A DNA stretch of 22,636 nucleotides, taken from a virus. The stretch is taken from positions 1,445-24,080 of IMG/VR virus record IMGVR_UViG_3300037847_001245; one strand, 5' to 3'. The notes beneath the pieces were generated by a model. That model saw only the letters and a program-made list of their open reading frames with translations. It did no database searches and was not told the DNA's origin. A program made the translations under genes and the position numbers. Positions 1,804 through 20,610 of the stretch are shown here, in pieces (the first letter of the stretch is position 1; every line of letters starts with the position of its first letter).

Positions 1804-2355
1804 TTATATTACAATAGTTACTGTACCCACACCAGAAGTAGCAGATGCAGCGGTTCCAGTAAAAGAGTACGCAAATGCAGTAGTTACTGCCCCAACGCCA
1901 GAAGTAGCGGCGGCGGCTGTACCTGTAATACTATAAACAGCAACAGCATTAGCGCCTCCAACCTGACCATCTGCCATAAAATGGATAACATCATCTATCT
2001 CTGCAGAAGCATCAAAGGTTATAACCTGACCCACCTGTCCCGTACCTGATCTAAAGTACTCAATACTCACTGGCACATCTATATTAGGGTCAATAACAAT
2101 CCTTACTTCACCTGTGGAAAGCATCCACATATCGCCGGGCTGAAGACCTGCATTATAAGCTTCTACGTTATTAGCAAACTGCTTTATGCCCCCACCTTCA
2201 GGTTTTAAATTTAACTCGTTAGCTGTTACCTTTCCGGGGTTTGTTAACTGCTCTTGGAAAAGGGAAAAAGCTCTAACCACTTCACGCATGTAGTTTTGGT
2301 CGTATTCTTTTGGTGGTACGGCAAAGAAATACCGTGGGAGCGGGTTATCTGCCAT
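1804..2355 (-). CDS. Tail-hub companion structural protein with SFTGTAASATSGVG repeats
   Basis: The N-terminal half of this 183-residue protein (MADNPLPRYFFAVPPKEYDQNYMREVVRAF...) matches a family I remember next to gp10-like tail hub genes in marine phages; about residues 15-110 form its conserved core. The C-terminus carries two copies of a beta-type repeat, YS(I/F)TGTAA(A/S)ATSGVG(A/T)VT (about residues 138-183), similar in style to the 22-residue repeat of the 7823-6333 protein. It is coupled to the gp10-like gene by TAATG. Probably a structural tail component; exact role unknown. Confidence 0.75.
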   Translation of the reverse strand: MADNPLPRYFFAVPPKEYDQNYMREVVRAFSLFQEQLTNPGKVTANELNLKPEGGGIKQFANNVEAYNAGLQPGDMWMLSTGEVRIVIDPNIDVPVSIEYFRSGTGQVGQVITFDASAEIDDVIHFMADGQVGGANAVAVYSITGTAAAATSGVGAVTTAFAYSFTGTAASATSGVGTVTIVI

Positions 2356-4274
2356 TATCTTTTCCCGTCAGGTCTAATATCAAGTCTATTTAGACCTAAT
2401 CTCCATGTTGTGCCTGTTTGAGAAGATTGCACTTTTAAAGCAATGGCTCTGCCTCTAACTCTAAGATCTACTTTCTCTGTATACTGCTCTATAGGAACAG
2501 AGGAAGATTTAACAATATTTGCTGTGTCAGAGCTAACCTGCAGACCGCCATTATAGTTAAAAGCGTCTATGGTATAATCTACTGTCGGTGCAGCATTAGT
2601 GCTGTTTCTAAAAGTTACATCAGGTATTAGCTTTCGAACATAGCTAAAGACCTCACCATCTCCTAAATCTATGGGAGCAGATTGCACAAAAGCATTGATT
2701 GCAGTTGGCGTTGGAGTGCTTTGGTCATCATGCCCAAACTCGTGGAAATAAAGTTTACCATCTGTCCCCGCTGCTATTGGGTAATCGTCTACACCCATAT
2801 CTATCCATGCGGTTCTGTCTAAAGTACCATAATACCAAATGTCTTGGTTGTAATTATAGACAACGTACTTATCAATGTTATCACTTTCTAACGATGGATA
2901 GAACCACCATATTTCACCGTAGCCAGAGTTTACACCAACAAATATTTTTTCTGACTGCTCATTATTAATATCTGTAAGTACCTTCTCTTTTACTGTGCAA
3001 TTAAGTTGAGCGACATTACCTGAGTACACATAAAATTGATCAACACCCATCCAATATACATTATCACCTATAGCAACAGCAGAGTTAGGGCTTCTAATAC
3101 TTAAATTCTCTGAAACCCTGTTTATACCAAAAGTAAAAGGTGGGCCTATAAACTGCATAGAGTGTAGACCTTGGTCTGTAAAAATTAGTATCTCTTGTCT
3201 TGTCTCAACCGCTTGCACTATGGCTGTACCAGAACCTATACGGAGATCCCCTGCTGTATTAGTAGTTAAAGGTGTCCAATTCGCAGGATTTTCTTGATCT
3301 GAAAATCTAATAAGAAGAGGGTCTTGTACGTTAGATCCAAGCGGGTTGCAGCCAAAAGCTATAACGTGCCTATCAATATCTGACACCATAACCTGTTTTG
3401 CTACTAAAGGTGTGTTGCTCGCACTTGTAAGGGCTGATAAGTATACACCTCTCTGAGAAACACTGCCAGATGTGTCCCAGTAGAATATTGGCCCATCTCG
3501 TACACAAAAAATAAGGTCTTCACCAAAAGTATCATGTTGCCATAATCTTAATGTCTCTGCCAAAACATTGACTGAAGCTCTTGAGTTCCAAGCGCCTCTA
3601 GACCATGTACCTGCACCCCAACCATTGCCAAATGTAGATGTATCCACACCAGACTGCACTTGATAAGCGCCTACTGTATTTGAGCCGCCAGTGTTTGTAT
3701 CTCCTGATGTCGCTGATACATATGCTGCAGCATCATTTATAACCCCACCATCATAATATTGGTTTACGTCTGTATTTGCTGTCCTAGCATTTATCGTATA
3801 AGTGCTGTTTGTAGCTGTTTGTATTTGATATTCTTGATTTAAAACATCTGCTGTTATTGCTCCTCCAAGGCCAACAGCCCCACTAAACGTAACAAAATCA
3901 CCTAGTTTAGCTTCATGGTTTGTATCTGTCACAGTTATAACATGACTACCAGTTGTGGCAGAAAAAGTTACATCTCCCGCTGCGGTTGTGTTTCTTATTG
4001 GTGTAATGTCATAAAAGACCCCACCGTCTTCTATGTAGTATTTAAGGTGCGTACCCACCCCTACCAATCTATCTGATTCTAACGTCAACCAAGGCTTTAA
4101 TGCACGGCAAGAACCTATAAACTGATTTTCACCTTTAGCAGCCCAACCACCTATTTTTTCTGGGTAACCTTCTCTGAACCGTATCTTATCCCCATCACTC
4201 CAACCGTTTTCATTGGCGTAATCAGGAAGCTCCGAGTTTATTCCGGGCCTAAATTCCATTTTTTGTAATACCAT
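2355..4274 (-). CDS. P22 gp10-like tail hub / packaged-DNA stabilization protein
   Basis: The 639-residue product begins with the family hallmark QKMEFRPGINSELPDYANENGW...DGDKIRFREGYPEKIGGW and continues with repeated beta-strand segments, including LLIRFSDQENPANWTP and the hydrophobic EILIFTDQGLHSMQFIG region. This is the pattern of phage tail hub proteins related to P22 gp10, which close the head-tail channel below the connector and bind the tail spikes. P22 gp10 is shorter (about 470 residues); here Ser/Thr/Gly-rich inserts near residues 95-220 account for part of the difference. Start chosen at 4274, where GAGGG lies seven bases upstream; a second Met at residue 6 has no ribosome-binding site. 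Confidence 0.85.
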   Translation of the reverse strand: MVLQKMEFRPGINSELPDYANENGWSDGDKIRFREGYPEKIGGWAAKGENQFIGSCRALKPWLTLESDRLVGVGTHLKYYIEDGGVFYDITPIRNTTAAGDVTFSATTGSHVITVTDTNHEAKLGDFVTFSGAVGLGGAITADVLNQEYQIQTATNSTYTINARTANTDVNQYYDGGVINDAAAYVSATSGDTNTGGSNTVGAYQVQSGVDTSTFGNGWGAGTWSRGAWNSRASVNVLAETLRLWQHDTFGEDLIFCVRDGPIFYWDTSGSVSQRGVYLSALTSASNTPLVAKQVMVSDIDRHVIAFGCNPLGSNVQDPLLIRFSDQENPANWTPLTTNTAGDLRIGSGTAIVQAVETRQEILIFTDQGLHSMQFIGPPFTFGINRVSENLSIRSPNSAVAIGDNVYWMGVDQFYVYSGNVAQLNCTVKEKVLTDINNEQSEKIFVGVNSGYGEIWWFYPSLESDNIDKYVVYNYNQDIWYYGTLDRTAWIDMGVDDYPIAAGTDGKLYFHEFGHDDQSTPTPTAINAFVQSAPIDLGDGEVFSYVRKLIPDVTFRNSTNAAPTVDYTIDAFNYNGGLQVSSDTANIVKSSSVPIEQYTEKVDLRVRGRAIALKVQSSQTGTTWRLGLNRLDIRPDGKR

Positions 4275-4284
4275 TTAAAAACCC

Positions 4285-4833
4285 TCAATAAGCGGCTACT
4301 TTTATATAGCTTTGATCCTTACCTTCTCTCTTAGAATATACTAGTATAAAATTATTATCTGAAGCAATCTTTTCTAAACTATCGGCTAATGAACTACTTC
4401 CGCCCCAGTCGGCTCTGGATGCAACAACTTCAACTTCATCTATAGATATTTCAGTGCCATCAGATTCATACCTATCGATCAATGCATCGGTAGTATCAGT
4501 TTTTTTGTAGTTTTTCTTTTGGACTACTTTGTTATCGCTAGAAAAGTAATAACCTATTATATGCTCTTCACTGGAATGAGAATTGAGATATATTCTAACT
4601 TTATCAGTTCCAATACTACTTAGATCTACTCCATACCTAGTTGTATTGTATATTTCTGGAGGCAAGTCACCGACTAAATCTCTAAGGGTCTGCCTATTAT
4701 CAACCACTAAAGTTACGCTTTCGACACCGTCTCTATAACAATAAATGAGTTCTGTTGTTTTATTTAGAATTGCTGAATCTAACTCGTTTGTGGACGGATG
4801 AAGATGAGCAAATAATTTTCCTATATAAGACAT
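4285..4833 (-). CDS. Hypothetical protein, 182 residues
   Basis: I do not recognise this protein. It starts MSYIGKLFAHLHPSTNEL and looks like a mixed alpha/beta soluble protein: alternating hydrophobic strands (ELIYCYRDGVESVTLVVDN), an acidic middle (residues 110-150) and a predicted helix near SLADSLEKIASDN, ending in a basic KREGKDQSYIKVAAY. It lacks the Gly/Ser/Thr-rich composition of the fibre genes around it. It lies between a glycine-rich adhesin and the gp10-like hub gene with seven- and ten-base gaps, so it is in the same transcript. It could be an accessory or anti-host protein as easily as a virion protein. Confidence 0.7.
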   Translation of the reverse strand: MSYIGKLFAHLHPSTNELDSAILNKTTELIYCYRDGVESVTLVVDNRQTLRDLVGDLPPEIYNTTRYGVDLSSIGTDKVRIYLNSHSSEEHIIGYYFSSDNKVVQKKNYKKTDTTDALIDRYESDGTEISIDEVEVVASRADWGGSSSLADSLEKIASDNNFILVYSKREGKDQSYIKVAAY

Positions 4834-4840
4834 TTTTATC

Positions 4841-5557
4841 CTAACTACTTAATGTCAAAGTTCCACTGGATGTAAAAGGATACACGTTGCCACCAACTGT
4901 AATTCTTGCATAACCTGCCGCTCCGTTACCACCTGCGTGGTTGCCCCCAGTGCCTCCTGCACCTGCAGCTCCAATAGTTATCGTAATAGTAGTTCCGCTT
5001 ACAACTTCTCGTGTTCCTGTATACCTAGTCGCAGCAGCTCCACCTTCTCCTTTACCTCCTGAGCTATCGAATTTGTTAGGAGAATCTCCACCACCACCTG
5101 AACCACCTGCGCCATAATGAGTTGATACCGCTGATGCCCCTGCAACGCCGTTAGCAGTTTGCCCCGGCCCTACGCCATAATAAGAATCTCCACCCTCACT
5201 ACCTACGCCTGTACTCCAAGAAATAACAGCGTGTCTTCCGCCTTGTCCTCCAGATGCAGTTACTGTGGTCATACCAGACCCTGTAATCGAAGAAGTTCCT
5301 CCACTCCCCGCTCTAGCAGTAGAGCCGTAACCATCTTCTAGGCCATAGCCACCACCTCCGCCACCACCTATAATTTCGTAGCTAAAAGTAACAGTATTTG
5401 CTGTGCCGTAAAAATCACTTATAGAAATAGGATTACCATCAGCAGGTACACCAGAAGCAGCAGAAAAGTATTCAGACAAACCTATTGGGTTAGACCCACC
5501 AAACTCATCTTGGATATCATCTAAACTTAACGGAACTCCTGCGTTTGGTAAGCCCAT
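4841..5557 (-). CDS. Glycine-rich tail adhesin with VPLSL...ISISDFYG anchor
   Basis: The 238-residue product has an N-terminal anchor (about residues 1-51: AGVPLSLDDIQDEFGG..PIGLSEYF...PISISDFYG) followed by a long glycine-rich region with runs such as IGGGGGGGYG, GAGGSGGGG and GAAGAGGTGG, closing with YPFTSSGTLTLSS. Glycine-rich sandwiches of this type form the distal receptor-binding parts of several phage adhesins (the polyglycine packing of T-even gp38 is the best-known comparison). The anchor is shared with the 1567-1049 protein. Its start overlaps the stop of the preceding fibre gene by one base (TAATG), so the two are probably made together, as fibre and tip. Confidence 0.8.
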   Translation of the reverse strand: MGLPNAGVPLSLDDIQDEFGGSNPIGLSEYFSAASGVPADGNPISISDFYGTANTVTFSYEIIGGGGGGGYGLEDGYGSTARAGSGGTSSITGSGMTTVTASGGQGGRHAVISWSTGVGSEGGDSYYGVGPGQTANGVAGASAVSTHYGAGGSGGGGDSPNKFDSSGGKGEGGAAATRYTGTREVVSGTTITITIGAAGAGGTGGNHAGGNGAAGYARITVGGNVYPFTSSGTLTLSS

Positions 5558-6294
5558 TACGGTGATCCATATGCTGTCACATCATTTGCAGCGACTACTG
5601 CGCCAGAAGAGTTTATGCTAAACTTAGCAGATCCATTATAGTAAAAAACTAATTTACCACCTGCCTCATCTATAGTCCACGCCCCAAAATCTACCAATCC
5701 TGCTTGAACCTCACCACTATCTCCGTAGATAACGGCTTTTTGATTAACCACAGTATTTTTTACCGCTCCGTCTAAAAGATCTAGATCAGCGGCTTCTAAG
5801 CTAACGCTTATACCATCAAGCACATTAAGTTCTGCAGCGGTTGATGTTATGGCAACTCCATTTTGTTTTAGTTGTCCTAGCTGCGTGTTAGAGGATAGGT
5901 TTACAACATTGTTGTTACCATCAGCATATATGATTGCAAAAGACCCAGTAGTTACATTTGCTGTAGTTGCCCCAGAACCCTGAGATAGGGTAACTGTTTG
6001 GTTTGTATCGTTCTTTACATAGTAAACTTTTTGTGCGTCTGAGGGCAGTATGGTGATAGTATGAGCTGCAGCTAGAGTACCTGTACAAATTAAAACTTTA
6101 TACTGACCATCCGATGTGCTTCCGTTATTCGTGGTAAGGTTACTAGAAGTGCCTACCAGAGATAAACTAACAACACCGTTGATCGCACGGTCTATAATAT
6201 CACTATTTGTATTTACGGTTATGCCCCAAGAACCAGATTGCTCACCAGAAGCGGGCTTCTCTATCCCCGTGTTTGTTGTAAATGTACTAGGCAT
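5557..6294 (-). CDS. Tail fibre protein of the marine phage type, no chaperone domain
   Basis: The 245-residue product begins MPSTFTTNTGIEKPASGEQSGSW followed by GITVNTNSDIIDRAINGVV, an N-terminus I know from many marine phage tail fibres. It continues through VYYVKNDTNQTVTLSQGSG and FAIIYADGNNNVVNL, then has AITSTAAELNVLDGI, a typical fibre-shaft motif. It ends NSSGAVVAANDVTAYGSP. In homologues I recall, a segment like this leads directly into a C-terminal S74 chaperone domain; here a stop follows. A palindromic element and a ribosome-binding site (AGGAG) precede the ATG, and the glycine-rich adhesin follows by TAATG. Confidence 0.85.
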   Translation of the reverse strand: MPSTFTTNTGIEKPASGEQSGSWGITVNTNSDIIDRAINGVVSLSLVGTSSNLTTNNGSTSDGQYKVLICTGTLAAAHTITILPSDAQKVYYVKNDTNQTVTLSQGSGATTANVTTGSFAIIYADGNNNVVNLSSNTQLGQLKQNGVAITSTAAELNVLDGISVSLEAADLDLLDGAVKNTVVNQKAVIYGDSGEVQAGLVDFGAWTIDEAGGKLVFYYNGSAKFSINSSGAVVAANDVTAYGSP

Positions 6295-6307
6295 TTTATG
6301 CTCCTAT

Positions 6308-6330
6308 AAAAAGTTCAATTGAACTTATTT
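6308..6330. repeat. Palindromic intergenic element, copy 1
   Basis: A perfect 16-base palindrome, AAGTTCAATTGAACTT (6311-6326), lies in the 38-base gap upstream of the 6294 fibre start. Including flanks, 23 bases (6308-6330) are identical to the copy at 19034-19056. In the transcript the palindrome is followed by a short U-run and then by the ribosome-binding site AGGAG, so it could be a weak hairpin, an RNA-processing site or an operator. Confidence 0.7.
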
Positions 6331-6332
6331 CT

Positions 6333-7823
6333 CTACGCTGCTTCATCTTCTATGTTTAAATCTGACCATACAGGGGGAGCAGATTCATCAACAGTTAAAT
6401 TTATGTCAGTATACACATCTTGTGTTGGAACGTCTATAACTAAGGGTGAATACGGATCTGCCAAAGTTTCCTGTAAAGGATCTACCGAATTATACATCCT
6501 TACCTGACCAACAAGTGGAGTGCCTGTAGATACCCCCGTTACTGCAACCCCACTCCTACCTGTTATTGTCACGCTTCCAACAAGACCAGTAGACCCATCG
6601 GCTGTTGTTGGGAACGATATGTACGGAGTAACTGAACTTGTAGCTATGGTTGCGGATATACCAGTTACCGATATGTTCGCTGTAGCGGTACTTGTAACAG
6701 AACCAACAAATGTAGAAGCTGCAAGGCCTGTTGATGGTATGTCTGCCGTTCCTATTGTGGTTGCAGAACCTGCAGTACCAGTAGATGATGGCCCTGTAAC
6801 CGATACATTTACTGGGATAACGATCTCAACACCACGCACTGCAGTGCTAGAAGTCACACCTGTTACGGAGACTGTTATAGGTATGGCAGTACTTGCAGAG
6901 CCAACAGCACCTGTGCCTGACAAACCGCTTACCGCTACATTTGCCGTACCGACTATGGTCGGGCTACCAACTGCAGAAGATGCTTGAAAACCTGTCTCAG
7001 CTACGTCTGCTGCACCGCCTACAGTCACTCCATTTGTGCTAACTGTTGCTTGAGAGCCTCCAACATCAACAGATTTTGGTATAGCGGCTCCTGTAGAACC
7101 AACATTACCAGAAGCAGCAACACCACTAACCGCAACTGTAATATTGCTTATTGCTATTATAGTTACGTCTGTAAAGCCAACAGAAGTAAAGGGGTTCGGA
7201 GTTCCTCCCTCCACACCTGTTACAGAAACGCCTATACCTGTCTCAGCTACAACTCCTGAAGAACCGCCAGTAGCTGCAATACCTGTAACGCCTACGTTTG
7301 CATCGCCTGATACAGAGAAGTCTAGAGTTGATACCGCAATGGTATTACCCATACCATTACCGTGAACAGTACAATAATACCTAAGAGAATCAGGGGCATT
7401 ACTTGGGACAACGAAAGTAACTTTAGCTCCAGAATTTCCTGCAGTCCCTGTAGTGGTTACTCCTGTAGTATAGCTATTTCCACTCCCATCTTTAAAAGCA
7501 AGTGGATGGCCTGAAACTGAATTATCTGATACGTCAAAGACGTATGTTGTATTTCTTACAAGATTAAGCGTTGGTGCTTCTGCACCATCTATGTAGAACT
7601 TATTTCCAGACCCACTATTAGCTACTGTAACAGTAAAGGTAACTGTAGCATGAGGGCCAACACTAGCCTCAAGTCCTACCGCAGGTGTGTCATTAGCACC
7701 TGATATTACTACACTTCCAACCTGCCCAGTTCCAGATACTCCAGTAGCAGTAAGAGATACTGGTACTGAATCAATAACATCATCAGCTATTGGAACTTTT
7801 GCGAGGGGTTGAAAGCCAAACAT
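6333..7823 (-). CDS. Virion protein with cupredoxin-like domain and 22-residue repeats
   Basis: In this 496-residue protein, residues about 60-165 form a cupredoxin-like domain: KFYIDGAEAPTLNL, TYVFDVSDNSVSGHPLAF and LRYYCTVHGNGMGN. H106, C151, H154 and M158 are in the order and spacing of type-1 copper ligands. From residue 228 to 403 there are eight consecutive units of exactly 22 residues (consensus xxVxVTGxxxxxxVGSxxxxxx), with related, less regular units before and after, most likely a beta-solenoid or fibrous shaft. The C-terminus (about 440-496) is acidic, with PPVWSDLN. The same two ingredients occur in the 19936-19085 protein. Location in the tail cluster argues for a virion protein; copper binding is inferred, not shown. 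Confidence 0.75.
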   Translation of the reverse strand: MFGFQPLAKVPIADDVIDSVPVSLTATGVSGTGQVGSVVISGANDTPAVGLEASVGPHATVTFTVTVANSGSGNKFYIDGAEAPTLNLVRNTTYVFDVSDNSVSGHPLAFKDGSGNSYTTGVTTTGTAGNSGAKVTFVVPSNAPDSLRYYCTVHGNGMGNTIAVSTLDFSVSGDANVGVTGIAATGGSSGVVAETGIGVSVTGVEGGTPNPFTSVGFTDVTIIAISNITVAVSGVAASGNVGSTGAAIPKSVDVGGSQATVSTNGVTVGGAADVAETGFQASSAVGSPTIVGTANVAVSGLSGTGAVGSASTAIPITVSVTGVTSSTAVRGVEIVIPVNVSVTGPSSTGTAGSATTIGTADIPSTGLAASTFVGSVTSTATANISVTGISATIATSSVTPYISFPTTADGSTGLVGSVTITGRSGVAVTGVSTGTPLVGQVRMYNSVDPLQETLADPYSPLVIDVPTQDVYTDINLTVDESAPPVWSDLNIEDEAA

Positions 7824-8995: not shown

Positions 8996-10117
8996 TTAAG
9001 ATGCCGCTCCTGAACAAGCTACAGGATAAGACTGTGCTTCTGCAAGGTCTCCATGATCAGTAGCGTTTCCTGTGGTCTGGATCGTTATGATTTCTAAGTT
9101 ATTAGCAGGGTTGCTAGGCGTAATACCCCCTGCAAAAACTCCTTTTGTTAAGTTTGCCACACCTGCGGCTCCATCTAAATTTACTGTAAGATCACCAAAA
9201 TCTGTAGCATTTCCTGCGCTTTGCGTTGTAAGATATTGAAGCACATTTGATCCTCCTGCGTTACCACCAAAAACTATTCTGGTTGCATCCGAACAGCCTT
9301 GCAGATCCTGCTGAGTTGATAAGAAGTCTCCAAAATCTGTAGCGTTTCCTGCTGAAGCAAAGGTAAAATAATCTATTGTATTTGAGGTTCCCCCACTTCT
9401 CCCCCCTCCAAACACAGCTCTAGTCGCATCATTGCCAGACCCTAATCTACCATAATTAGCGCTTGACAGGTCTCCGAAATCCGCAGCGTTTCCTGTGTTG
9501 GCTATCGTGAAAGACTCTACTGTGTTTACATAGCTTGATGAAGCATTTATCCCGCCCGCATAAAGCCCTATTGTTCCGTTAGCACAACCACCCCCATAAG
9601 ACCTTGCTGTAGCAAGATTTCCAAAGTCCGTGGCGTTACCTGTTGTGGAATGTGTAATATAATCTATTTCATCTCTTCTTGCACTACTAGCGTAACCTCC
9701 CGCAAAAGTACCTCTAGTACTAGAACCGCAAGAACCTAGCTTAAAACCCCTAGTTACACTAAGATTACCAAAATCTGCTGCGTTGCTTGTTGAAGCTATG
9801 TTAAAATATTGAATTTCGTAGTTTGTAAAACTTTCACCAGTGATAACACCCCTATCACCACTCCAAGCATTACTAGTGGGAGCAGTAGCTCCAAGCCAGT
9901 CTTTCCACTCATTATTCATGTAGACTTTATAGATGTCATTATCACTATCCCACCAAGTATCTCCGTTGGATGGGCTGCTAGGCTCGGTAGCTCCTTCTGT
10001 ATGTGTAAAGCTTGAAATACCGCTATCAGAACCGTTTATGTTAAAACCGTTAGAAAAATTAACAGCGCCAGTACCTGCTCTATCGCTAAGTTTTGTAACT
10101 TTTAGGAATTCACTCAT
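8996..10117 (-). CDS. Six-repeat propeller-type tail adhesin, paralogue D
   Basis: The 373-residue protein has an N-terminal anchor (residues 1-75) with EPSSPSNGDTWWDSDNDIYK, then six tandem units of roughly 48 residues. Each unit reads approximately RGVFAGGY...NTIDYxTIxTTGNATDFGDLxxAR; the GNATDFGD words are NAADFGN, NATDFGN, NAADFGD, NATDFGD, NATDFGD and NATDHGD. The alternating strands, GG pairs and regular spacing fit a kelch-like six-bladed beta-propeller. It is the last of four paralogues here. It ends CSGAAS. Start ATG overlaps the stop of paralogue C (ATGA). Probably a receptor-binding protein exposed on the virion. Confidence 0.8.
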   Translation of the reverse strand: MSEFLKVTKLSDRAGTGAVNFSNGFNINGSDSGISSFTHTEGATEPSSPSNGDTWWDSDNDIYKVYMNNEWKDWLGATAPTSNAWSGDRGVITGESFTNYEIQYFNIASTSNAADFGNLSVTRGFKLGSCGSSTRGTFAGGYASSARRDEIDYITHSTTGNATDFGNLATARSYGGGCANGTIGLYAGGINASSSYVNTVESFTIANTGNAADFGDLSSANYGRLGSGNDATRAVFGGGRSGGTSNTIDYFTFASAGNATDFGDFLSTQQDLQGCSDATRIVFGGNAGGSNVLQYLTTQSAGNATDFGDLTVNLDGAAGVANLTKGVFAGGITPSNPANNLEIITIQTTGNATDHGDLAEAQSYPVACSGAAS

Positions 10118-11241
10118 GATGCGGCTCCTGATGATCCTGCGTTTTCATACCTTGCAACAGTTAAGTCGCCAAAATCCGCAGCATTTGCGGGTGTTTGTAT
10201 AGTTACAGACTGAATAGTGTTTACAGTAGTAGAAGTATATCCTCCCATCCAAACACCAACAGTGCCGTTAGATGTACCTGTGCAACCTCTTACTCCAGTA
10301 GTCATGTCTCCAAAATCTGTAGCGTTTCCTGTAGTTCCAGTTGTAACATAGTCTATAGTATTATTGCTACCTCCTGTAGACAAACCTCCACCAAAAACTG
10401 TTCTTGTGGCATCGGAGACTTTTTGAAACCCATAAAAATCTCTCCATGTAGTAGTTAGAGTACCAAAATTAGTAGCGTTTCCTGTTGTATCTATTGTTAT
10501 GTATTGAATCTCGTTTGTGATACTAGACCCATTACCGTTACCTGCAAATAGTCCTCTACTTCCATCACTACCGCAAGCGGGGCCATTATTAGCAAAATAA
10601 TTCGAAGAATCTAAAGACCCAAAAGATGTAGCATTACCTGTGTTGGCTATAGTAATGTATTCCATAGCTCCACTGTTCGATTTGCTGCCCCAAACTCCTC
10701 TAGTTCCATTGCTAACCGCACCGCAATAACTCATCCCTTGTACTAGATCACCAAAGTCTGTAGTGTTTCCTGTTGTAGAAGATGTAATATATTCTAAAGT
10801 CTGTGTGTTACTTGGCGGCAAACTACCAATAACTATTCTTGAAGCATTGCTTATAGCTGCTACTTTATTAGCGCCGCTCGATGTGTCACCAAAATCAGTC
10901 GCATTACCTGCTGAAGTTATATCAAAATAGTCGATAGTATTATAAGTGCTTGCGCCATCTCCCGCTGCGGTAATCCCTCTATCACCGCCCCAACCAAATG
11001 CAGGAGTGGAGGTTCCTAACCAGTCTTTCCATTCGTTATTCATATATACTTTGTATATATCATTATCGCTATCCCACCATGTGTCCCCATTGCTAGGACT
11101 ACTTGGTTCATTTGCTCCCTCTGTGTGCGTGAAGCTTGAGATGCCACTGTCAGAACCGTTTACATTGAAACCATTAGAAAAGTTGACCGCACCTGTTCCT
11201 GCCCTGTCACTAATTTTTGTAACTTCTTCGGCAGTACTCAT
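10114..11241 (-). CDS. Six-repeat propeller-type tail adhesin, paralogue C
   Basis: A 375-residue paralogue directly upstream of D. The anchor (TKISDRAGTGAVNFSNGFNV...NEWKDWLG) differs from that of D at 3 of 69 residues. After the anchor the six GNATDFGD-type units (NATDFGD, NTTDFGD, NATSFGS, NATNFGT, NATDFGD, NAADFGD) have diverged much further, in both loop length and sequence. The C-terminus GSSGAAS and the ATGA overlap with the next gene are also shared features. The pattern suggests a fixed attachment domain with a variable, presumably ligand-binding, propeller. Three bases separate it from the stop of paralogue B. Confidence 0.8.
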   Translation of the reverse strand: MSTAEEVTKISDRAGTGAVNFSNGFNVNGSDSGISSFTHTEGANEPSSPSNGDTWWDSDNDIYKVYMNNEWKDWLGTSTPAFGWGGDRGITAAGDGASTYNTIDYFDITSAGNATDFGDTSSGANKVAAISNASRIVIGSLPPSNTQTLEYITSSTTGNTTDFGDLVQGMSYCGAVSNGTRGVWGSKSNSGAMEYITIANTGNATSFGSLDSSNYFANNGPACGSDGSRGLFAGNGNGSSITNEIQYITIDTTGNATNFGTLTTTWRDFYGFQKVSDATRTVFGGGLSTGGSNNTIDYVTTGTTGNATDFGDMTTGVRGCTGTSNGTVGVWMGGYTSTTVNTIQSVTIQTPANAADFGDLTVARYENAGSSGAAS

Positions 11242-11244
11242 ATT

Positions 11245-12456
11245 CTAAGCCCCAGAAAAACCCGAAGTACTATACCACCTAATAGCAAGATTTCCTATAA
11301 AGGAGGCATTACCTGCGGTTGCTATGGTAACTACATACCTTCTTCCATCAAGGTTGGGGCCACTGGCAACTCCTGCTCCCAAATTACTTCCTGCAAACTC
11401 TCCGTAAGTACCGTTAGAAACAGCGGCTCCATCATTAACGCCATTAGGTAGATCTCCATGATCAGTAGCATTTGCACCAGTGGCAATAGTAAATCTATCT
11501 ATAGACTGAACATCTTGAGAGCCGTTATAACCACCTCCAACTATTCCAGTTGTATTATCAGATATTACACCCTTTAAAAAATATGCGTTTGCTGCAGTAA
11601 GATTTGCATGATCAGTAGCATTTCCTGCTGTCGCCATAGTTATTTTTTGTATTCTATTTTGATAAGTATACGGGCTTTGTGTATGCCCACCCATGAACAG
11701 CCCAGTAGTTTCGTCATTAGAAGAGGCTCCACTTTTCAATACGCCTGTATTACCAGATTCCCCTCCTAACAGATCCCCAAAGTCTACAGCATTACCTGTA
11801 TTAGCGATAGTTACATAATCAATGGTGTTAATGTAACCGCTTTGACCAAAACTATATCCGCCACCGTAGATACCACGAGTTCCATTACCAACAGATCCCA
11901 TACTAGTTGTTCTATCAACAGTCTGATCACCAAAATCAGAAGCATTTCCTGCTGTGGCACAGGTTATGTAGTCTAGTTGATTTGCGGCTGTTCCGCTACC
12001 TTGGTAACCAGAAGCAATTACACCTCTTGTATTATTGCTCGTTCCATAAGTGTAGTTAGGTTGAGTCATATTAAGATCACCAAAATCAGTAGCCTGTGTA
12101 CTATCATTTATAGTCCAGTTATCTATCTGTTGCAGATAACCACTACTTGGCCCCTGTGGGTTACCAGAACCTGCAGCATTAGTGTAAGCGCCGCCCCCTG
12201 TGGTAAAACCTTTTAAACCACCCCAGACAGGAGCAGAAGATCCAGCCAGACTTAACTCTTTAAATTCACCACTGATATATCTGTACAGTTTTTCGTTACT
12301 GCTATCCCACCAAAAGTCACCTGTTGCAGGACTGCTAGGTTCACTTCCACTAGCTGTATATCCTTGCTCTACGTTGCTTCCGCCTATCTTAAATTTTTGA
12401 GGTAGGTCAACGGCACTTCCATTATTCGTAATGGTGTTTACTCTTAGTGTACTCAT
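11245..12456 (-). CDS. Six-repeat propeller-type tail adhesin, paralogue B
   Basis: The most divergent of the four repeat proteins (403 residues). The anchor is different at its start (MSTLRVNTITNNGSAVDLPQKF) but contains the shared block SEPSSPATGDFWWDSSNEKLYRYISGEFKEL. Six units follow, with key words QATDFGDL, NASDFGDQ, NAVDFGDL, NATDHANL, NATDHGDL and NASFIGNL; the first unit has a long insert and the last is degenerate. It ends GFSGA. Gene position between the assembly chaperone and paralogue C fits a fibre-type protein whose folding may need the chaperone encoded just before it. Confidence 0.8.
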   Translation of the reverse strand: MSTLRVNTITNNGSAVDLPQKFKIGGSNVEQGYTASGSEPSSPATGDFWWDSSNEKLYRYISGEFKELSLAGSSAPVWGGLKGFTTGGGAYTNAAGSGNPQGPSSGYLQQIDNWTINDSTQATDFGDLNMTQPNYTYGTSNNTRGVIASGYQGSGTAANQLDYITCATAGNASDFGDQTVDRTTSMGSVGNGTRGIYGGGYSFGQSGYINTIDYVTIANTGNAVDFGDLLGGESGNTGVLKSGASSNDETTGLFMGGHTQSPYTYQNRIQKITMATAGNATDHANLTAANAYFLKGVISDNTTGIVGGGYNGSQDVQSIDRFTIATGANATDHGDLPNGVNDGAAVSNGTYGEFAGSNLGAGVASGPNLDGRRYVVTIATAGNASFIGNLAIRWYSTSGFSGA

Positions 12457-12909: not shown

Positions 12910-13383
12910 TTATGAAATCCTTATCCATAGACTTGCATATCGTCCTTTTTTTGGTGCGAGCATATTTCGATATGTTCCCGAATATCCTGTGTAAAGTGGG
13001 CTAGCATGAGCATTTGGCCTACCTGTTATTGATGATGTATTATACCAACCAGTTGTTTGAGAAGGTTCCATAACTCCCACAAAATACTCAAATGTCAAAT
13101 GTTGGTCACCCTTGCCAAGATGACTTGCTGGAACAGTTCCACCTGCTGCCACTGTAGCAGTGGTATCAACATTTGATACTGCCTGTCCTGATGTAACAGG
13201 TGGTATATAATTTGACCAAGTATAAACACCAACTTTACCATAGTATAAAGCATCAGCCGGGCCACTGTCAGTGATATTACCAGATCCTAAGATGCTGTTT
13301 CCGTCCAATGTTCTAAAACTATTTGCATTGTTTTGTATGCCACTAGAATCTAAAACTGTTGTGCCGTTTATCTGAAACCCCAT
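12910..13383 (-). CDS. Short FQ(V/I)NG tail protein, third of a tandem trio
   Basis: A 157-residue protein starting MGFQINGTTVLDSSGIQNNANSFRTLDG, with NSILGSGNITD after it, and ending RYASLWIRIS. The N-terminus is a short hook shared with the two genes upstream (13781-13383 and 14308-13781), and the end (W.RIS) is shared too, while the middle, here including CTY-free aromatic strands such as HLTFEYFVGVMEP, is unique. This is what one expects of small alternative tips or adhesins on a common adaptor. Coupled to the previous gene by a one-base TAATG overlap. No biochemical function can be assigned. Confidence 0.7.
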   Translation of the reverse strand: MGFQINGTTVLDSSGIQNNANSFRTLDGNSILGSGNITDSGPADALYYGKVGVYTWSNYIPPVTSGQAVSNVDTTATVAAGGTVPASHLGKGDQHLTFEYFVGVMEPSQTTGWYNTSSITGRPNAHASPLYTGYSGTYRNMLAPKKGRYASLWIRIS

Positions 13384-13781
13384 TATGAAATCCTAGCCCA
13401 AAGTATATTCATATGCTTACCTGCACTTGTATCAAATGCTTGGTGACTAAGAGAACGCCATGTTCCAGATTGGGCATAAGATTGTAAATCAGAAGTATTA
13501 TGACCTCTTGTTGTGTCAAAAGAATAATACCTTCCACTTATTACCAAAACCATTAAAGTTGACCCTGCCACAGTTGTTCCTGAATTAAAATTATTACTAC
13601 CTGTTGAAGTAGAACAACACTGAATAGTAAAAGTTCCGACAGCACCATAAGTTGTAGGTCTGACGTATTTCATATCACCAGAACCCACTATGCTAAAACC
13701 ATTTACTGTTTTAGGAAAAGCACTAGATTGAAAGTTTCTTGAGCCATCTATAACTGCTGTTCCATTTACTTGAAAAGCCAT
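13383..13781 (-). CDS. Short FQVNG tail protein, second of a tandem trio
   Basis: A 132-residue protein starting MAFQVNGTAVIDGSRNFQSS, then TVNGFSIVGSGDMKYV, and ending in SGTWRSLSHQAFDTSAGKHMNILWARIS. Both ends align with the neighbouring trio members; the variable middle contains a CC pair (FTIQCCSTSTGS) not seen in the others. Both junctions are one-base TAATG overlaps, so stoichiometric production with its paralogues is likely. Probable minor tail or adhesin protein, by position and by the phage-type hook; function otherwise unknown. Confidence 0.7.
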   Translation of the reverse strand: MAFQVNGTAVIDGSRNFQSSAFPKTVNGFSIVGSGDMKYVRPTTYGAVGTFTIQCCSTSTGSNNFNSGTTVAGSTLMVLVISGRYYSFDTTRGHNTSDLQSYAQSGTWRSLSHQAFDTSAGKHMNILWARIS

Positions 13782-14308
13782 TACGCAATCCTCATGTATA
13801 TATTGCTAGGCCAATAGCTAGAACCTCGTTCCGATCCGGGGGAATAAACACTCCAAGTTCCAGAAAAATTTCTAACATAATCTGAGTTTTGGGTTTGCCC
13901 TGATAAATGTGAGCTGCCACCCCACCAACCCTGAGCTAACCGCCAATTACTATCGTAAAATGGATAAGCGCCATAACTGAAATTCATATCGACCATATCC
14001 CTTATAGTAGAACCCGGGCTACCTGAACCATAGGGTTCTATCCCTGCAATAGTCCAACCACCGGGGACACCAGCGGCAAACTGAAAAGTGTTTAAAGCGG
14101 TTGCACTATAAGTAGGCGAACCATCATAAGCAACACCAAGCGTAACACTACCTACGGTGTTACGACTAGTACCAAAGGTTCCAACAGCCGCCGTATTAGT
14201 GGTCATCGAGCCTGTACCAGTCATAGCAGTGTTTTGTGCAGTTTTTAAACCTTGGGTAAAATGCCCACTGCTATTAATCCACTCAACACCGTTAACCTGA
14301 AAGCCCAT
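13781..14308 (-). CDS. Short FQVNG tail protein, first of a tandem trio
   Basis: A 175-residue protein starting MGFQVNGVEWINSSGHFTQG and continuing AMTGTGSMTTNTA, the same hook as the next two genes. The body is Gly/Ser/Trp/Tyr-rich (PGGWTIAGIEPYGSG, WRLAQGWWGGSSH), a composition common in receptor-binding tips, and it ends NIYMRIA, matching the trio's W.RIS end. ATG 14308 lies inside the last codons of the S74 fibre gene, with AAGGA eight bases upstream, so a 17-base overlap couples the two. Confidence 0.7.
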   Translation of the reverse strand: MGFQVNGVEWINSSGHFTQGLKTAQNTAMTGTGSMTTNTAAVGTFGTSRNTVGSVTLGVAYDGSPTYSATALNTFQFAAGVPGGWTIAGIEPYGSGSPGSTIRDMVDMNFSYGAYPFYDSNWRLAQGWWGGSSHLSGQTQNSDYVRNFSGTWSVYSPGSERGSSYWPSNIYMRIA

Positions 14309-15224
14309 TTAATTTATCCTTCAGCTTGTTAATCTGTTCTTGTTGACCTTTAACTGCCTCAATAAGCACACCGACTAGGTTGTTGTAGCTTACTGACTTC
14401 TTACCTTTTTCATCTGTTGAAACTGCGTTGGGCAGAACTTGCTCTACATCTTGGGCTAATACACCCTCTGCGCTTCCTTCATTGTCTCTCCAATCAAAAG
14501 AAACGCCTGTTATTTTTTCTAATATATCTAATGGGTTTTGTATTGGTACGATGTTTGTTTTTAAAGTTGCGTCTGAAGTGGCGTTAAATGTAGCAGCTTG
14601 AACAACTCCTGCGTTAGTAATTCTTGCTCTTTCTGTGAATCCACTTTGAGCGCTTGGATCAGTCGATGTGCCGAATACAAGGTTTGTTGTGCTATCAAAA
14701 GCAAATGTTGGCTGACTGGTGCTTTCTACATTGATTGCGAACTCACCAGTACCACTGCTAGGAGATGATCTTCTGAGTGTGAGAAACCCATTAGTTGTAT
14801 GTTCAATGTCAAGCTTATTCTGAGGGGAGCTAGTCCCTATACCTAATCGGTCATTTGAAGCATCGAGGTTAACAGTTGCTGTTGCTAAGTGTGCGTCAAC
14901 GTCACTATCTGAATAACCTGCAGGAGGAGCTGCCCAAGTTAATCCACCTGTATTTCCTGACTGTGCTGAAAGGAAGTATCCATTTGTAGGTGAGTTACTT
15001 ACTTTTAAATTATCTTCGTCAACTACGTTACTTGCAATAGCTGTTGCACCATCAGCAGAGCTTGTAACCTCGCCACTATGGTTAGGGTGAACATAGTTGT
15101 TAGCACTTGCGGCTATACCTGATAGTTTAGTTTCTTCTGCCGTTGTATAAGAAGCTGTTGACCCATCTATTATACTAGCTGAATCAGCTAAATCTGCGAA
15201 TTGTCTGTTTCTTGATTTTGTCAT
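14292..15224 (-). CDS. Tail fibre with C-terminal S74 intramolecular chaperone
   Basis: In this 310-residue fibre, residues 1-120 are a tail-fibre shaft with TTAEETKLSGIAASANNY and HPNHSGEV; residues 124-215 include DRLGIGTSSPQNKLDIE, also typical of phage fibres. The C-terminal ~95 residues are a peptidase S74 chaperone: SDATLKTNIVPIQNPLDILEKI, GVSFDWRD, GVLAQDVEQVLPNAV and a final coiled-coil helix. The self-cleavage dyad is present as S217 and K222 (Ser plus five to Lys, as in endosialidase-type chaperones), so the domain should trimerise the fibre and then cut itself off. Start overlaps the upstream stop (ATGA). Confidence 0.9.
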   Translation of the reverse strand: MTKSRNRQFADLADSASIIDGSTASYTTAEETKLSGIAASANNYVHPNHSGEVTSSADGATAIASNVVDEDNLKVSNSPTNGYFLSAQSGNTGGLTWAAPPAGYSDSDVDAHLATATVNLDASNDRLGIGTSSPQNKLDIEHTTNGFLTLRRSSPSSGTGEFAINVESTSQPTFAFDSTTNLVFGTSTDPSAQSGFTERARITNAGVVQAATFNATSDATLKTNIVPIQNPLDILEKITGVSFDWRDNEGSAEGVLAQDVEQVLPNAVSTDEKGKKSVSYNNLVGVLIEAVKGQQEQINKLKDKLNGLSG

Positions 15225-16378
15225 GATGCTGTTCCTGATCCTCCAGCATGTCCAGTTCTTCCTAAAGTAAGATCACCGAAGTCTGTTGCATTTCCGGGGG
15301 TTTGTATAGTAACTTGCTCAATTACATTTGATGTAGCACCTGCGTAATAACCCGTCATTACTGCCTTTGTTCCATTACTGCTTGCAGCGCCATCAAACCT
15401 GTAACTAAGAAGATCTCCAAAATCGGTAGCATTCCCTGCAGTTTGAGTTGTAACATAATCGATTACAGTCCCTTGTGTTGTTGTCGAAGGAGCGCCACCA
15501 AGAAAAAGAGACCTAGTAGTATCTGCAGCTCCAGAGCCTTCTTTTCTTCCTAAAGTAAGGTCTCCGAAATCTGTGGCATTTCCTGTAGTATCAATAGTTA
15601 CATACGCTATTGTATTTTCATACCCAAAGCTTGCGTTCTGACCGCCTCCAAATAAACCTCTAGACCCATCACCTGCACCTGCAGCATTATTTAGTGATAC
15701 AGTAAGGTCTCCGAAATCTGTCGTGTTTCCAGTATTAGCTATAGTTATATAAGTGATTTCATTGACTCTGGCAGAAAGACTAGAAGAATATCCACCTGCA
15801 AATAATCCTCTTGTGCCGCTTGATACAATACCATGATTCAATCCACTAATTCCAGTATGTGTATGATCACCAAAATCAGAGGCATTTCCTGTGGTTGCAG
15901 TGGTTATATAATCCAAATTTTGACTATAGCCACTTCCAGTATAACCTGTACCAGTAACAAATCGAGTTGAGCTTCCAGTTGCCCTAGCTCCGTTTCTTGT
16001 TTCTGTTGTATCACCAAAATCGGTAGCATTACCTGCAGAGGTTAAATTAATATAATCTATTGTATTTTGATAAGTTCCGCTTGCATAACCAGAAGCAAAA
16101 ACACCTCTATCACCGCCCCAAGTAAAAGTAGCACCAGAAGAAGCGTTTAACTCAATCTCCTTAAACTCACCTGCTATATAAACCATAACTTTATCGTTGC
16201 CGCTGTCCCACCACAAAGCTCCATTTTTAGGACTGCTTGGCTCTGAACCAGAAGATGTATACGAGTATGTGTTTAGCGTAGAAAGGGCTGAACCTGCAGA
16301 GTGTGTAGGAGACACAGGAAAGTTTGGTTTTCCTGAACCTGCTGCATTCTGTACGTTATCAACTTTTATTTCAGTCAT
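15221..16378 (-). CDS. Six-repeat propeller-type tail adhesin, paralogue A
   Basis: A 385-residue protein from ATG 16378, which overlaps the upstream stop as TAATG; an in-frame GTG at 16393 would give five extra residues but is less likely. The anchor has SEPSSPKNGALWWDSGNDKVMVYIAGEFKEI. Six units follow, with words NATDFGDT, NASDFGDH, NTTDFGDL, NATDFGDL, NATDFGDL and NATDFGDL and the unit motif RGLFAGGY...ITYITIANTGN. It ends GSGTAS. First of the four paralogues in transcript order, separated from B by the S74 fibre, FQVNG trio and chaperone. Probable beta-propeller adhesin. Confidence 0.8.
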   Translation of the reverse strand: MTEIKVDNVQNAAGSGKPNFPVSPTHSAGSALSTLNTYSYTSSGSEPSSPKNGALWWDSGNDKVMVYIAGEFKEIELNASSGATFTWGGDRGVFASGYASGTYQNTIDYINLTSAGNATDFGDTTETRNGARATGSSTRFVTGTGYTGSGYSQNLDYITTATTGNASDFGDHTHTGISGLNHGIVSSGTRGLFAGGYSSSLSARVNEITYITIANTGNTTDFGDLTVSLNNAAGAGDGSRGLFGGGQNASFGYENTIAYVTIDTTGNATDFGDLTLGRKEGSGAADTTRSLFLGGAPSTTTQGTVIDYVTTQTAGNATDFGDLLSYRFDGAASSNGTKAVMTGYYAGATSNVIEQVTIQTPGNATDFGDLTLGRTGHAGGSGTAS

Positions 16379-17178
16379 TATAGCAACACCCACCTAGCTC
16401 CTGAAGGGACTGTAACAGTCGCCCCACTATTTATCGTAATCGGGCCTACCGACATGGCATTTTTATTTGTAGTTAAAGTATAACTTGTTGTAACTGTGGT
16501 AGAGTTTTCGTGAAAAACTTCGTCACTACCACCACCAGTAGCTCCACCCCCACCAGAGATAGTAGAAAAACTAAGTGTCCCACTACCATTTGTAACTAAC
16601 GCTTGCCCATTTGACCCATCAGATCCGGGCAATGTAAAAGTGTTTGAGAATGTGGAAAGATTGCTATCGCCAAGTCCATATTCCACAACTTCTACTTTGT
16701 CATTTACAGCAGCGCCATGATCCAAGACAACACTTGTACCATTTGTTGCTGTATAATCTCCCTGTAGTAGCTTAACGCCGTTTAAAAAGACATCAATAGT
16801 GCCTACTGTGTAGTTTACCGAAAATGTCGTTTGGTTTGCTGTAGCTGTAAACTCGTTAACATTAAAAGCATTAGGAGCTAAAACTAAATCTGCAGCAGAA
16901 GGACTTATAAAAACCTTTGCATTACCACTAAGATTTAGTAGAGATCCCGTAGAACTAGAAGTTAAAACTCTGGTTAGAGTAGTGCCTGAGTGAGTGTAAA
17001 CACCTGTCCCAATCTCCCAAGCACTAACTCCATCTTCTATTACATACCTAACAGTATCTCCGTTACTAACACCACCAGAGGCAAAAGTTTGGTAGCCTGT
17101 TTCCGCTGACCCTAATGTTATAGTTCCAGTACCAGTTGTACTTGTACCTACCCTAACTCTATCTGCGAATTTGACCAC
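16378..17178 (-). CDS. Tail fibre / collar-like protein
   Basis: The 266-residue product opens [20 protein letters not shown] followed by a [24 protein letters not shown] block, an N-terminus common to marine and cyanophage fibre proteins. Residues about 108-170 are a second recurring module ([30 protein letters not shown]...KVEVVEYG). The C-terminus ([29 protein letters not shown]) is again a recurring fibre end. Start is GTG 17178, with AAGGTG just upstream; there is no in-frame ATG near. Probably a trimeric structural fibre; the receptor, if any, is unknown. Confidence 0.8.
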
Positions 17179-17641: not shown

Positions 17642-17944
17642 TCATAATCTCCTTATTAGTTCGGCAAGTTTAGGATGCCCCGCGTCTTTCAAGGCATTAT
17701 ACACGGTTGTGCGGTCACTGCGAATAGCTTCTCGCATATAAAATGCAACCACTTTTTCCATGTGCTTTTTGAAGGCATTTGCCTGATCTCTAATAGCAGG
17801 ATGTGATCCTTCAGAAACGCTTATCAATTTCTCTACACATCTCTCTGCTACCTCATCAGGTGTAAACCCTCTATTCTCTGTAGTTTTTATGTTAACTATA
17901 GGTTCTTTTGGTACATCTATATTAAACTTAAACATTAGCTTCAT
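17642..17944 (-). CDS. Small conserved helical phage protein
   Basis: I start this at ATG 17944 (MKLMFKFNIDVPKEPIV), giving 100 residues, because a GAGGAGGG lies eleven bases upstream and the recognisable family sequence starts here. ATG 17935 (97 residues) is a close alternative; a GTG-type start at 17998 would overlap the previous gene by 71 bases. The core NRGFTPDEVAERCVEKLISVSEGSHPAIRDQANAF is followed by VAFYMREAIRSDRTTVYNALKDAGHPKLAELIRRL. This is a small helical family that I recall beside adaptor genes in marine phages; no function is known to me. Confidence 0.7.
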   Translation of the reverse strand: MKLMFKFNIDVPKEPIVNIKTTENRGFTPDEVAERCVEKLISVSEGSHPAIRDQANAFKKHMEKVVAFYMREAIRSDRTTVYNALKDAGHPKLAELIRRL

Positions 17945-18587
17945 CAGGGCCGTAGCCCTCCTCCCCATTTCTATAGCCATCTTGTTGCAGCAGACCACCC
18001 ACCTTGGTAAATGCTTGCATAGCCAGTTGATGTTGTTTTCTATACTCGTTCATAAGTTCTGTATCACCTTTCATAAACGAATAAGCTTCTAATAATGACC
18101 CATACAGCAAAGCTGTTTCGGCATTGTCACCCAACCATGTTGTACCCGCTGTTACAATAGATGGTGGATCGTAATAGTAATTTATTTGAGCTAGATAGGC
18201 TTGATCTGGAGTTGGCGCTAATATGAAAAAACCCGGAGTGTTTGTTGTACCCCCAACAAACTGACCATAATACTTAGGTAAGCCTGTATCAGAAGCAGGG
18301 TATGCTTCTTTCATATAAGTCACGTTCTTGTTTAAGAGATAGCTCCAGTTACCATTCCCATCCTGTATAGCTATAGAGTACACGGCTATCATATCACTTG
18401 GCCTAGCCAGATACTGAGAACTTGCCGCAGTAGAACCAGTAGAAGCTTTTCTAAGCTCTGGTATGAGAACCTGACGCAATATCTTCTCTTCTGCCTGACG
18501 GACAAACGTAGGAATGTTAGCCACAAAAGAAGTCTCTGTGTTTTCCGTATAGTCCTTTATAGCCTGTGTTAACTCTGTATAGTTCAT
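17928..18587 (-). CDS. Head-tail adaptor family protein
   Basis: The 219-residue product starts MNYTELTQAIKDYTENTETSF, then VANIPTFVRQAEEKILRQV, includes YLARPSDMIAVYSIAI and YYYDPPSIV..GTTWLGDNAETALLYGSLLEAYSFMKGD, and ends acidic. These are hallmarks of a phage adaptor family found between portal/capsid genes and tail genes, which binds below the portal. The ATG is inside an imperfect copy of the repeated palindrome and has no strong ribosome-binding site, so its translation may depend on the upstream basic-protein gene or on structure at the palindrome. The end overlaps the next gene. Confidence 0.8.
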   Translation of the reverse strand: MNYTELTQAIKDYTENTETSFVANIPTFVRQAEEKILRQVLIPELRKASTGSTAASSQYLARPSDMIAVYSIAIQDGNGNWSYLLNKNVTYMKEAYPASDTGLPKYYGQFVGGTTNTPGFFILAPTPDQAYLAQINYYYDPPSIVTAGTTWLGDNAETALLYGSLLEAYSFMKGDTELMNEYRKQHQLAMQAFTKVGGLLQQDGYRNGEEGYGPDEANV

Positions 18588-19084: not shown

Positions 19085-19936
19085 TTAAGGCGTATTCGCT
19101 TGGCCTCCCATGCCACTATGATTTGTACAATAGTAGTACAGAGTTGGTGCGCCTGAAGCTACAGTAATTCTAGTATAAGCACCTGCGTTTCCTGCTGTAC
19201 CACCAGTTGTCACCCCAGTTGTATACTCTACGCCGCTTCCATGAGTTCCATCTGGTGTAGTAGAGAACCTTAAAGGATGACCGCTGTTACTTGAGTCAGA
19301 CTGATCAAATGTATAGGTGCTACCTTCATTTAGCGTTCCTGTGGGCTGTTGTGAGCCATCAATAAAGTACTTATTTCCGTATCCAGTGCTTTGTACAGTA
19401 ACAGCAAAAGATTGCGCCACATTAGTTGAAACGGTAGGTGAAGATGTACCACCAGTAGCTGAGACTCCGTTTGGAGTTGCAATCGCCTCTACCCCTAGTA
19501 CATTAACTGAGCCTACTCCACCTATAGCAGCATTTGGAGCGTTTGCATTTGCAGTAAACACATTAGCTATAACAGTGCCAACAGTGGCTGTTAGAGGCGT
19601 ACCTGTGACTGTTGCAAGGCTTTCATTGAAGTTTACAGTAACTGTACCTACAGATGCGGTCATGTATTGTGCAGGGTTCCAAACAGGATTAAACCCAAAT
19701 AACTGTCTGCTTTGTTCTAACGATCTATCTGGCCTAGCATTTGCAAGACTTTGAGGGTCAAATATTCTCATTCTGCCAAGAAAGTTTTGAGGGTGGTCGC
19801 CATCAGCAACATCCCTACCAACTCTTAACCCCGTCTTTACGCCATTCTGAAACTCGTCAACAAGCTCATTCAGTGGATACCTGAAGCCTGTTCTGTCACA
19901 GTAACCATAAGCATATTTGGCTTTAGCAATTGTCAT
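19085..19936 (-). CDS. Structural protein with YGYCDRTGFRYPL head and cupredoxin-like domain
   Basis: The first ~80 residues of this 283-residue protein (KYAYGYCDRTGFRYPLNELV, NGVKTGLRVGRD, DHPQNFLGRMR, DPQSLANARPDRS) match a phage family that follows gp4-like connector genes; related versions have a full zinc ribbon, but only one Cys (C13) remains here. The middle has beta repeats (VGTVTVNFNESLATVTGT, VGSVNVLGVE). Residues about 175-280 are cupredoxin-like: KYFIDGSQQPTGTLNEGSTY, SGHPLRF, LYYYCTNHSGMGG. H220, C270, H273 and M276 make a complete type-1 copper ligand set. Overlaps the upstream stop (ATGA). Probably a virion protein near the connector. Confidence 0.8.
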   Translation of the reverse strand: MTIAKAKYAYGYCDRTGFRYPLNELVDEFQNGVKTGLRVGRDVADGDHPQNFLGRMRIFDPQSLANARPDRSLEQSRQLFGFNPVWNPAQYMTASVGTVTVNFNESLATVTGTPLTATVGTVIANVFTANANAPNAAIGGVGSVNVLGVEAIATPNGVSATGGTSSPTVSTNVAQSFAVTVQSTGYGNKYFIDGSQQPTGTLNEGSTYTFDQSDSSNSGHPLRFSTTPDGTHGSGVEYTTGVTTGGTAGNAGAYTRITVASGAPTLYYYCTNHSGMGGQANTP

Positions 19937-20610
19937 CCACCACCCAGTACAAACGTATTATATGGAACAAACTTAATAGATGCTGTTTCTGCATCTTCAC
20001 CTGCTGCAAGCTCAAACTGATACTCATACTCTTGTTTTAAGGGCATAACTCTAGCTGCAGCTTCTGGTTTTTTCATAGCTATTTGATAAGCTAAACCAGA
20101 GACAAGGCACGGGATAAATCTTGGCGGTATCGCGGCTGTTGTGCCAACTCCTGTAGCTAACCCATCTATACCTTTCAAGCGATGATATGCAAAAGTGTAG
20201 GCTGTATCTGGAACAGGCCAAAGAGTAACTTTTGTTGCTGTAGCTAATCTTTGCACAAATATTTGAGTAGGTTTACCTGTAGTGTTTTTATTAGATTGAG
20301 CCGCATAGGTTGAAACGGATATACGCTGCAAAGCAGAATCAATCTGATTTACGCCCTGCCCAGTCCGTATCTGATGCTCAATCACATCAATGGTATCTAT
20401 AGGCATATTATACGTCTCTACACCTGCTGTTAAAGCTAGAGTGCCTTCATCTATTGTGAATAGATTAAGACCTCTATTTTGCCACTCAAGCAACATGATA
20501 TTAAGGCTACGTCTCGCTGTTCGAAGATCGTAGCCTGTGTTTAGCTCTAAACCTGCACGTTCATACGCCTCTTCGAATATATCAGGTAAATCTGGTGTAA
20601 CGACTGCCAT
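19933..20610 (-). CDS. P22 gp4-like head-tail connector (tail accessory factor)
   Basis: The 225-residue product begins with DIFEEAYERAGLELNTGYDL and RTARRSLNIMLLEWQNRGLNLFTIDEGTL, the helical signature of phage connector proteins related to P22 gp4 and similar adaptors, followed by beta segments (TYNMPIDTIDVIEHQI; KPTQIFVQRLATATKVTLWP) and a C-terminal helix (AYQIAMKKPEAAARVMPLKQEYEYQFELA). Members attach under the portal and keep packaged DNA from leaking. P22 gp4 is shorter (about 166 residues). The partner expected next to it, the gp10-like hub, is instead 15 kb downstream (4274-2355), beyond the fibre bank. Confidence 0.8.
   Translation of the reverse strand: MAVVTPDLPDIFEEAYERAGLELNTGYDLRTARRSLNIMLLEWQNRGLNLFTIDEGTLALTAGVETYNMPIDTIDVIEHQIRTGQGVNQIDSALQRISVSTYAAQSNKNTTGKPTQIFVQRLATATKVTLWPVPDTAYTFAYHRLKGIDGLATGVGTTAAIPPRFIPCLVSGLAYQIAMKKPEAAARVMPLKQEYEYQFELAAGEDAETASIKFVPYNTFVLGGG

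Follow-up and report, generated by a model that had tools for sequence, protein, structure and literature searches.

A cupredoxin-like module with a candidate type-1 copper site in predicted structural proteins of marine tailed phages

Protein B, a predicted virion protein of 496 residues encoded by a marine virus, carries at residues 57-166 a domain modelled as a cupredoxin fold with type-1-copper-like ligands, and the same module recurs in many extracellular proteins of marine phages and microbes. Our favoured explanation, to which we give a probability of about 0.6, is a mobile extracellular module which is displayed on the particle, loaded with copper and of help in host contact. In such a scheme, the beta-sandwich would be exposed on the particle and its preformed site (His106, Cys151, His154 and the axial Met158) would bind copper. 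Loading would probably take place once the particle has reached seawater, since almost no free copper is present in the cytoplasm where virions assemble. The metallated face could then help the particle touch the host surface. Marine phages carry the module on proteins of the tail fibre, the baseplate and the head-tail region, and in marine microbes it is joined to adhesin-like proteins of the surface. A bolder version, which we regard as possible but doubtful, is that unrelated marine tailed phages carry genuine blue-copper domains, several per particle, that are loaded from seawater after lysis and latch onto or recognise the host surface, making the particles an uncounted ocean pool of strongly bound copper.

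The stretch of DNA analysed (the window; 22,636 nucleotides) is the greater part of a marine virus record of 24,080 bases (IMG/VR record IMGVR_UViG_3300037847_001245), and nearly all of its real genes lie on the minus strand. The predicted 496-residue reading frame was recovered on that strand (7823→6333), and both motifs named in the original prediction, SGHPLAF and CTVHGNGMG, are found, with H106, C151, H154 and M158 at exactly those residue numbers. C151 is the sole cysteine of protein B and its histidines are three (58, 106 and 154). The domain stands N-terminal to the repeats, whereas that of protein A, the second domain-bearing protein, is C-terminal, again as had been claimed. Coordinates are listed in Table 1.

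Table 1. Features of the two domain-bearing genes, their context and one variant copy.
Feature	Position	Strand	Remarks
Protein B gene, 496 aa	6333..7823	-	Short N-terminus, cupredoxin-like domain, then V/T/S/G/A-rich repeats; PHROG matches to tail fibre and baseplate-connector families
Cupredoxin-like domain of protein B, residues 57-166	7326..7655	-	AF2 pLDDT 95; Foldseek to cupredoxins; hhalign to plastocyanin/amicyanin
Codon of predicted ligand His106	7506..7508	-	Invariant column; aligned to plastocyanin His39
Predicted ligand loop Cys151-x2-His154-x3-Met158	7350..7373	-	C, H and M invariant; aligned to plastocyanin Cys89, His92 and Met97
Repeat region of protein B, residues 167-440	6504..7325	-	22-residue spacing over about 274-384
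Protein A gene, 283 aa, second domain-bearing gene	19085..19936	-	Directly after SU10-type adaptor gene
Cupredoxin-like domain of protein A, residues 173-283	19088..19420	-	Predicted ligands H220, C270, H273, M276 (Cx2Hx2M)
SU10-like adaptor protein gene (context)	19933..20610	-	Pfam PF24175, E 5e-11
Second SU10-like adaptor protein gene (context)	17928..18587	-	Pfam PF24175, E 1e-20
Nozzle/stabilization-like virion protein gene (context)	2355..4274	-	phrog_3287, E 6e-74; 40% identity to stabilization protein of phage DSL-LC04
Gln-for-Met copy in L302	residues ~1327-1424 of ORF at 2038-6309		Ends the surface protein

The gene of protein B has as neighbours two SU10-type adaptors, a nozzle/stabilization-like protein, an S74 chaperone domain and several fibre-like paralogues. 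Since head-tail and tail genes surround it, placement in the virion is likely. Both protein B and protein A are thus likely virion proteins, judging from gene position and from homologues in the S-TIM phages and Syn1, which are annotated as virion structural proteins. Four paralogous fibre-like proteins (window 8996-12456 and 15221-16393, minus strand) have ‘NATDFGDLT’ kelch-like repeats and a common ‘SEPSSPxxGDxWWDS’ N-terminal motif; on contig L293, repeats of this kind are fused to the cupredoxin-like domain. Three tandem paralogues starting with MGFQVNG... are located at 12910-14308 (minus strand), followed by the S74 chaperone-domain fibre protein at 14292-15224. Within the head-tail gene block, positions 20617-20862 (minus strand) encode a basic 81-aa protein with an HNH-like stretch (DVDHKNGNPRDNSRKNLK).

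Based on an alignment of 42 family members, residues ~57-166 of protein B are modelled as a confident β-sandwich (pTM 0.88). A Foldseek search of this model against the PDB returned cupredoxins for all of the best 23 matches, including all 12 with an E-value of at most 1e-3. The best is the three-domain nitrite reductase 2dv6 (2.1e-5, TM 0.66), and others are rusticyanin, AcoP, McoA and CueO, multicopper oxidases being among the top 23; TM-scores to the solved cupredoxins are moderate, at 0.5-0.66. The domain of protein A, modelled separately (pLDDT 93), also finds rusticyanin and nitrite reductase first, with a weaker E-value of about 2e-3. Both copies are thus predicted to form the Greek-key beta-sandwich of about 7-8 strands that defines the cupredoxin fold superfamily. 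In the BFVD, the domain model matches the Pithovirus-/marseillevirus-like proteins A0A481Z7Q7, A0A481Z6J5 and A0A481YXP1 (‘beta-sandwich protein’).

At the sequence level, hhalign aligns the domain profile to plastocyanin/amicyanin (P 88%, E 2.9e-6), with all four predicted ligands placed on copper ligands. The score is 38; shuffling the columns 60 times never gave more than 24, and the reversed profile reached 10. When the ligand columns are masked, the score falls to 16.8 and most of the match is gone, so the sequence link to cupredoxins leans largely on the ligands and the fold prediction serves as independent support. Searching PDB sequences with protein B alone gave no useful match. With the family profile, SUMO and antibody chains outscore plastocyanin (E 0.3-0.6), and this search is therefore unusable alone. 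Taken together, model, Foldseek and hhalign support the cupredoxin-like fold with a full ligand set that had been proposed for protein B.

H106, C151, H154 and M158 conform to the type-1 motif, i.e. a His followed by Cys-x(2-4)-His-x(2-4)-Met in a loop between the last two strands, and from the alignment register the four side chains would converge on one metal. An alignment of 144 distinct homologues (Neff 40) has few fully invariant columns, and the four ligands H, C, H and M belong to them. This set had partly been recruited with a pattern containing YYCTVHGN, i.e. the ligand loop, which raised a concern of recruitment bias. The bias was removed by recruiting loci with the N-terminal half of the domain, which holds no ligand, and 79 out of 80 loci so obtained keep all four ligands. 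Recruitment bias can thus be dismissed as the cause of the conservation, which is non-random as originally suggested. Over the whole of protein B, identity to its relative L006 is 61%, compared with 90% in the domain, where 34 of the 46 codon differences are synonymous; the domain is therefore under strong purifying selection.

When all loci were scanned with a ligand-masked profile, 251 distinct domains were obtained, of which 245 are intact (five alignment slips corrected after inspection by eye), one is truncated, one has Met replaced by Gln and four have lost ligands (L245, L266 and the related L298 and L299). The Gln-for-Met copy, in the SAR86 surface protein L302, reads CLAHGNQ, an exchange of the stellacyanin type. 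When the whole genomes of two isolates were searched, four more ligand-free copies came up, three in S-RIM2 and one in Bellamy; each of these phages also holds two intact copies. The ligand-free copies sit in large structural proteins (S-RIM2, KX349248, at 21738, 62552 and 76081; Bellamy, MF351863, at 84405) and possibly represent a second use of the same fold. Every copy with ligand loss lacks both the Cys and the second His, and in most of them Asp stands in for the Cys (‘YYFD’ type). A shared site accounts for this all-or-none loss better than random drift does. According to the original prediction, loss of the ligands in close relatives that keep the rest of the domain would refute the idea. 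Ligand-free copies with the rest of the domain kept do occur, in S-RIM2, Bellamy, L245 and L298/L299, but they are a small minority and lose Cys and second His jointly.

The ligand-free copies indicate that the domain can persist without metal. One alternative is a purely structural Ig/beta-sandwich spacer, with H/C/H/M as a fossil or packing feature and no metal in the particle. The copies of S-RIM2, Bellamy, L245, L266 and L298/L299, often with Asp for Cys, fit such a spacer, as does the place of the module among other repeat and Ig-like domains. A spacer would, however, not need to keep a lone Cys for so long, and neither the near-complete retention of four invariant residues under unbiased recruitment nor the strictly joint loss of Cys and second His is what it predicts. 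We therefore consider it unlikely. Because ligand-free copies keep the domain sequence, the suggested use in stabilising the particle is weakened.

If the site does bind a metal, its ligand set makes copper the likely one. Cupredoxin sites can accept Zn or Ni in vitro, which gives some room to a site for another metal (Zn, Fe or Ni), for example as bait for host metal-uptake receptors in the manner of a ‘Ferrojan horse’. The tip of T4 gp37 binds iron in HxH motifs, and receptor bait of this kind has been proposed for marine phages (PMC11705849). The domain, in contrast, has no HxH motif, it shows the ligands and the loop typical of type-1 copper sites, and the one Met-to-Gln exchange matches the axial-ligand pattern of copper, all of which makes another metal quite unlikely. 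Fold and ligands also match those of electron-transfer cupredoxins, as would be expected of a redox-active blue copper domain that exchanges electrons with the host surface, or with the medium, while the phage adsorbs. Nevertheless, neither a partner redox protein nor a second copper centre was recognised within the window, the copies are spread over diverse structural proteins, and type-2/3 copper motifs are absent, hence no oxidase; a redox role appears very improbable.

The second domain had been described as independent of the first, which does not hold, as the domains of protein A and protein B are 55% identical over 104 residues and therefore homologues; two independent inventions are ruled out. 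The original prediction was right, on the other hand, that protein B does not carry a simple copy and that its ligand loop is one residue longer (Cx2Hx3M versus Cx2Hx2M in protein A). In a tree of 128 rows, built on few columns and with many forks unresolved, the Cx2Hx3M form makes up a clade of 45 rows (SH-aLRT 91), set in a wider background of Cx2Hx2M forms to which the copy of protein A belongs. This placement rules out a recent duplication. Contigs encoding both proteins exist among close relatives (G001 and G003) and more distant ones (G007 and G008); in G002, the spacing suggests that the expected place of the protein A gene lies beyond the contig end. On many other contigs the domain occurs at least twice, either as tandem copies or in different genes, so that more than one copy per phage is a recurrent state.

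In the freshwater Planktothrix phage Pag-Yong1, the part corresponding to the N-terminus of protein A stands alone beside the adaptor gene and the domain is missing; the domain is therefore an add-on. This N-terminus (residues 1-70) is related to a small adaptor-adjacent protein. Its relatives in L279 and Pag-Yong1 have zinc-ribbon-like Cys pairs, most of which are lost in protein A.

Hundreds of marine viruses share the module with some marine microbes, and among isolates it is present in 124-157 phage records. Cyanophages, pelagiphages and methylophages have it in tail fibres, connectors and baseplate proteins, and one genome often contains several copies. Pelagibacter phages HTVC028P and Baldr, like Methylophilales phage Melnitz, carry it in tail fibres; in P-HM1 it lies in the baseplate wedge protein gp7, in S-RIM2 at the C-terminus of the baseplate wedge-tail fibre connector, and in the S-TIM phages and Syn1 in virion proteins. 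The cellular carriers are large secreted or surface, adhesin-like proteins of marine bacteria and archaea: a giant Bacteroidetes protein on a 1.06 Mb contig (L291), a SAR86 protein with cadherin and Big_9 repeats, a Prochlorococcus DUF4214 protein, a collagen-repeat lipoprotein of marine group II archaea and a SAR116 RTX-type protein. MAG matches on short contigs (L279-L288, L303) and L293 are possibly phage contamination; L291 is not. Judging from this distribution, the module is an add-on that moves among extracellular proteins of both marine phages and marine microbes.

Among possible uses of a copper-binding module, we favour adhesion, because it accompanies adhesin-type repeats, fibre ends and connectors, is under purifying selection and retains its ligands jointly. 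The original suggestion of binding to the host surface fits the presence of the module in surface-adhesin-like cellular proteins. Should the sites be loaded, copper would be present in the tails of a large share of marine phages, with a bearing on adsorption, on how particles age under light and metal, and on the chemistry of copper in the ocean. The domain also gains a name and a testable site; PHROGs has it only within tail proteins, and no Pfam model covers it on the window proteins.

No Pfam family reaches the cut-off on protein A or protein B; Copper-bind (PF00127) is not reached by the window proteins, its best E-value of 0.0016 being found in 4 of 42 relatives. Protein B matches phrog_677, phrog_30742 and phrog_693 (E 2.5e-16, 7e-16 and 2e-6), essentially over the domain only. 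By profile match, PHROG 30742, 677, 693 and 27200 (tail fibre, baseplate wedge-tail fibre connector) contain the same domain in 41-42 of 42 members, but each family stands for a whole protein, takes its annotation from gene position and names no relation to copper proteins. Like the phage domain, plastocyanin and amicyanin are beta-sandwiches, and their His, Cys, His and Met follow one another in matching order and register. Protein A shares the Cx2Hx2M spacing with amicyanin, and protein B has Cx2Hx3M. At the first ligand, the phage domain has His-Pro where plastocyanin has His-Asn; it is embedded in a phage structural protein and has no known electron-transfer partner. Rusticyanin and the cupredoxin domains of the nitrite reductase from Hyphomicrobium are the best solved-structure matches of both copies, at 14-19% identity and TM-scores of about 0.5-0.66, and come from redox proteins.

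Multicopper oxidases such as CueO have His-Pro at the first type-1 ligand. The type-1 site of CueO is a fold match, but the phage protein has a single such domain and no trinuclear-site motifs. Multicopper oxidases are characterised by HxH/HCH trinuclear motifs and at least two cupredoxin domains, and protein B, with three His and one Cys, falls outside this class. An oxidase or an AMG plastocyanin (petE-like) was accordingly rejected, as the domain is fused to repeats among tail genes and has no HxH. In the literature searched, which covered papers outside subscription access, no description of cupredoxins in phage tails was found. The nearest published idea is iron bound by the HxH motifs of tail tips (PMC11705849), to which loaded sites would be the copper counterpart. 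T4 gp37-like tips also place metal in a phage tail, but with another fold, other ligands and another metal (PMC11705849).
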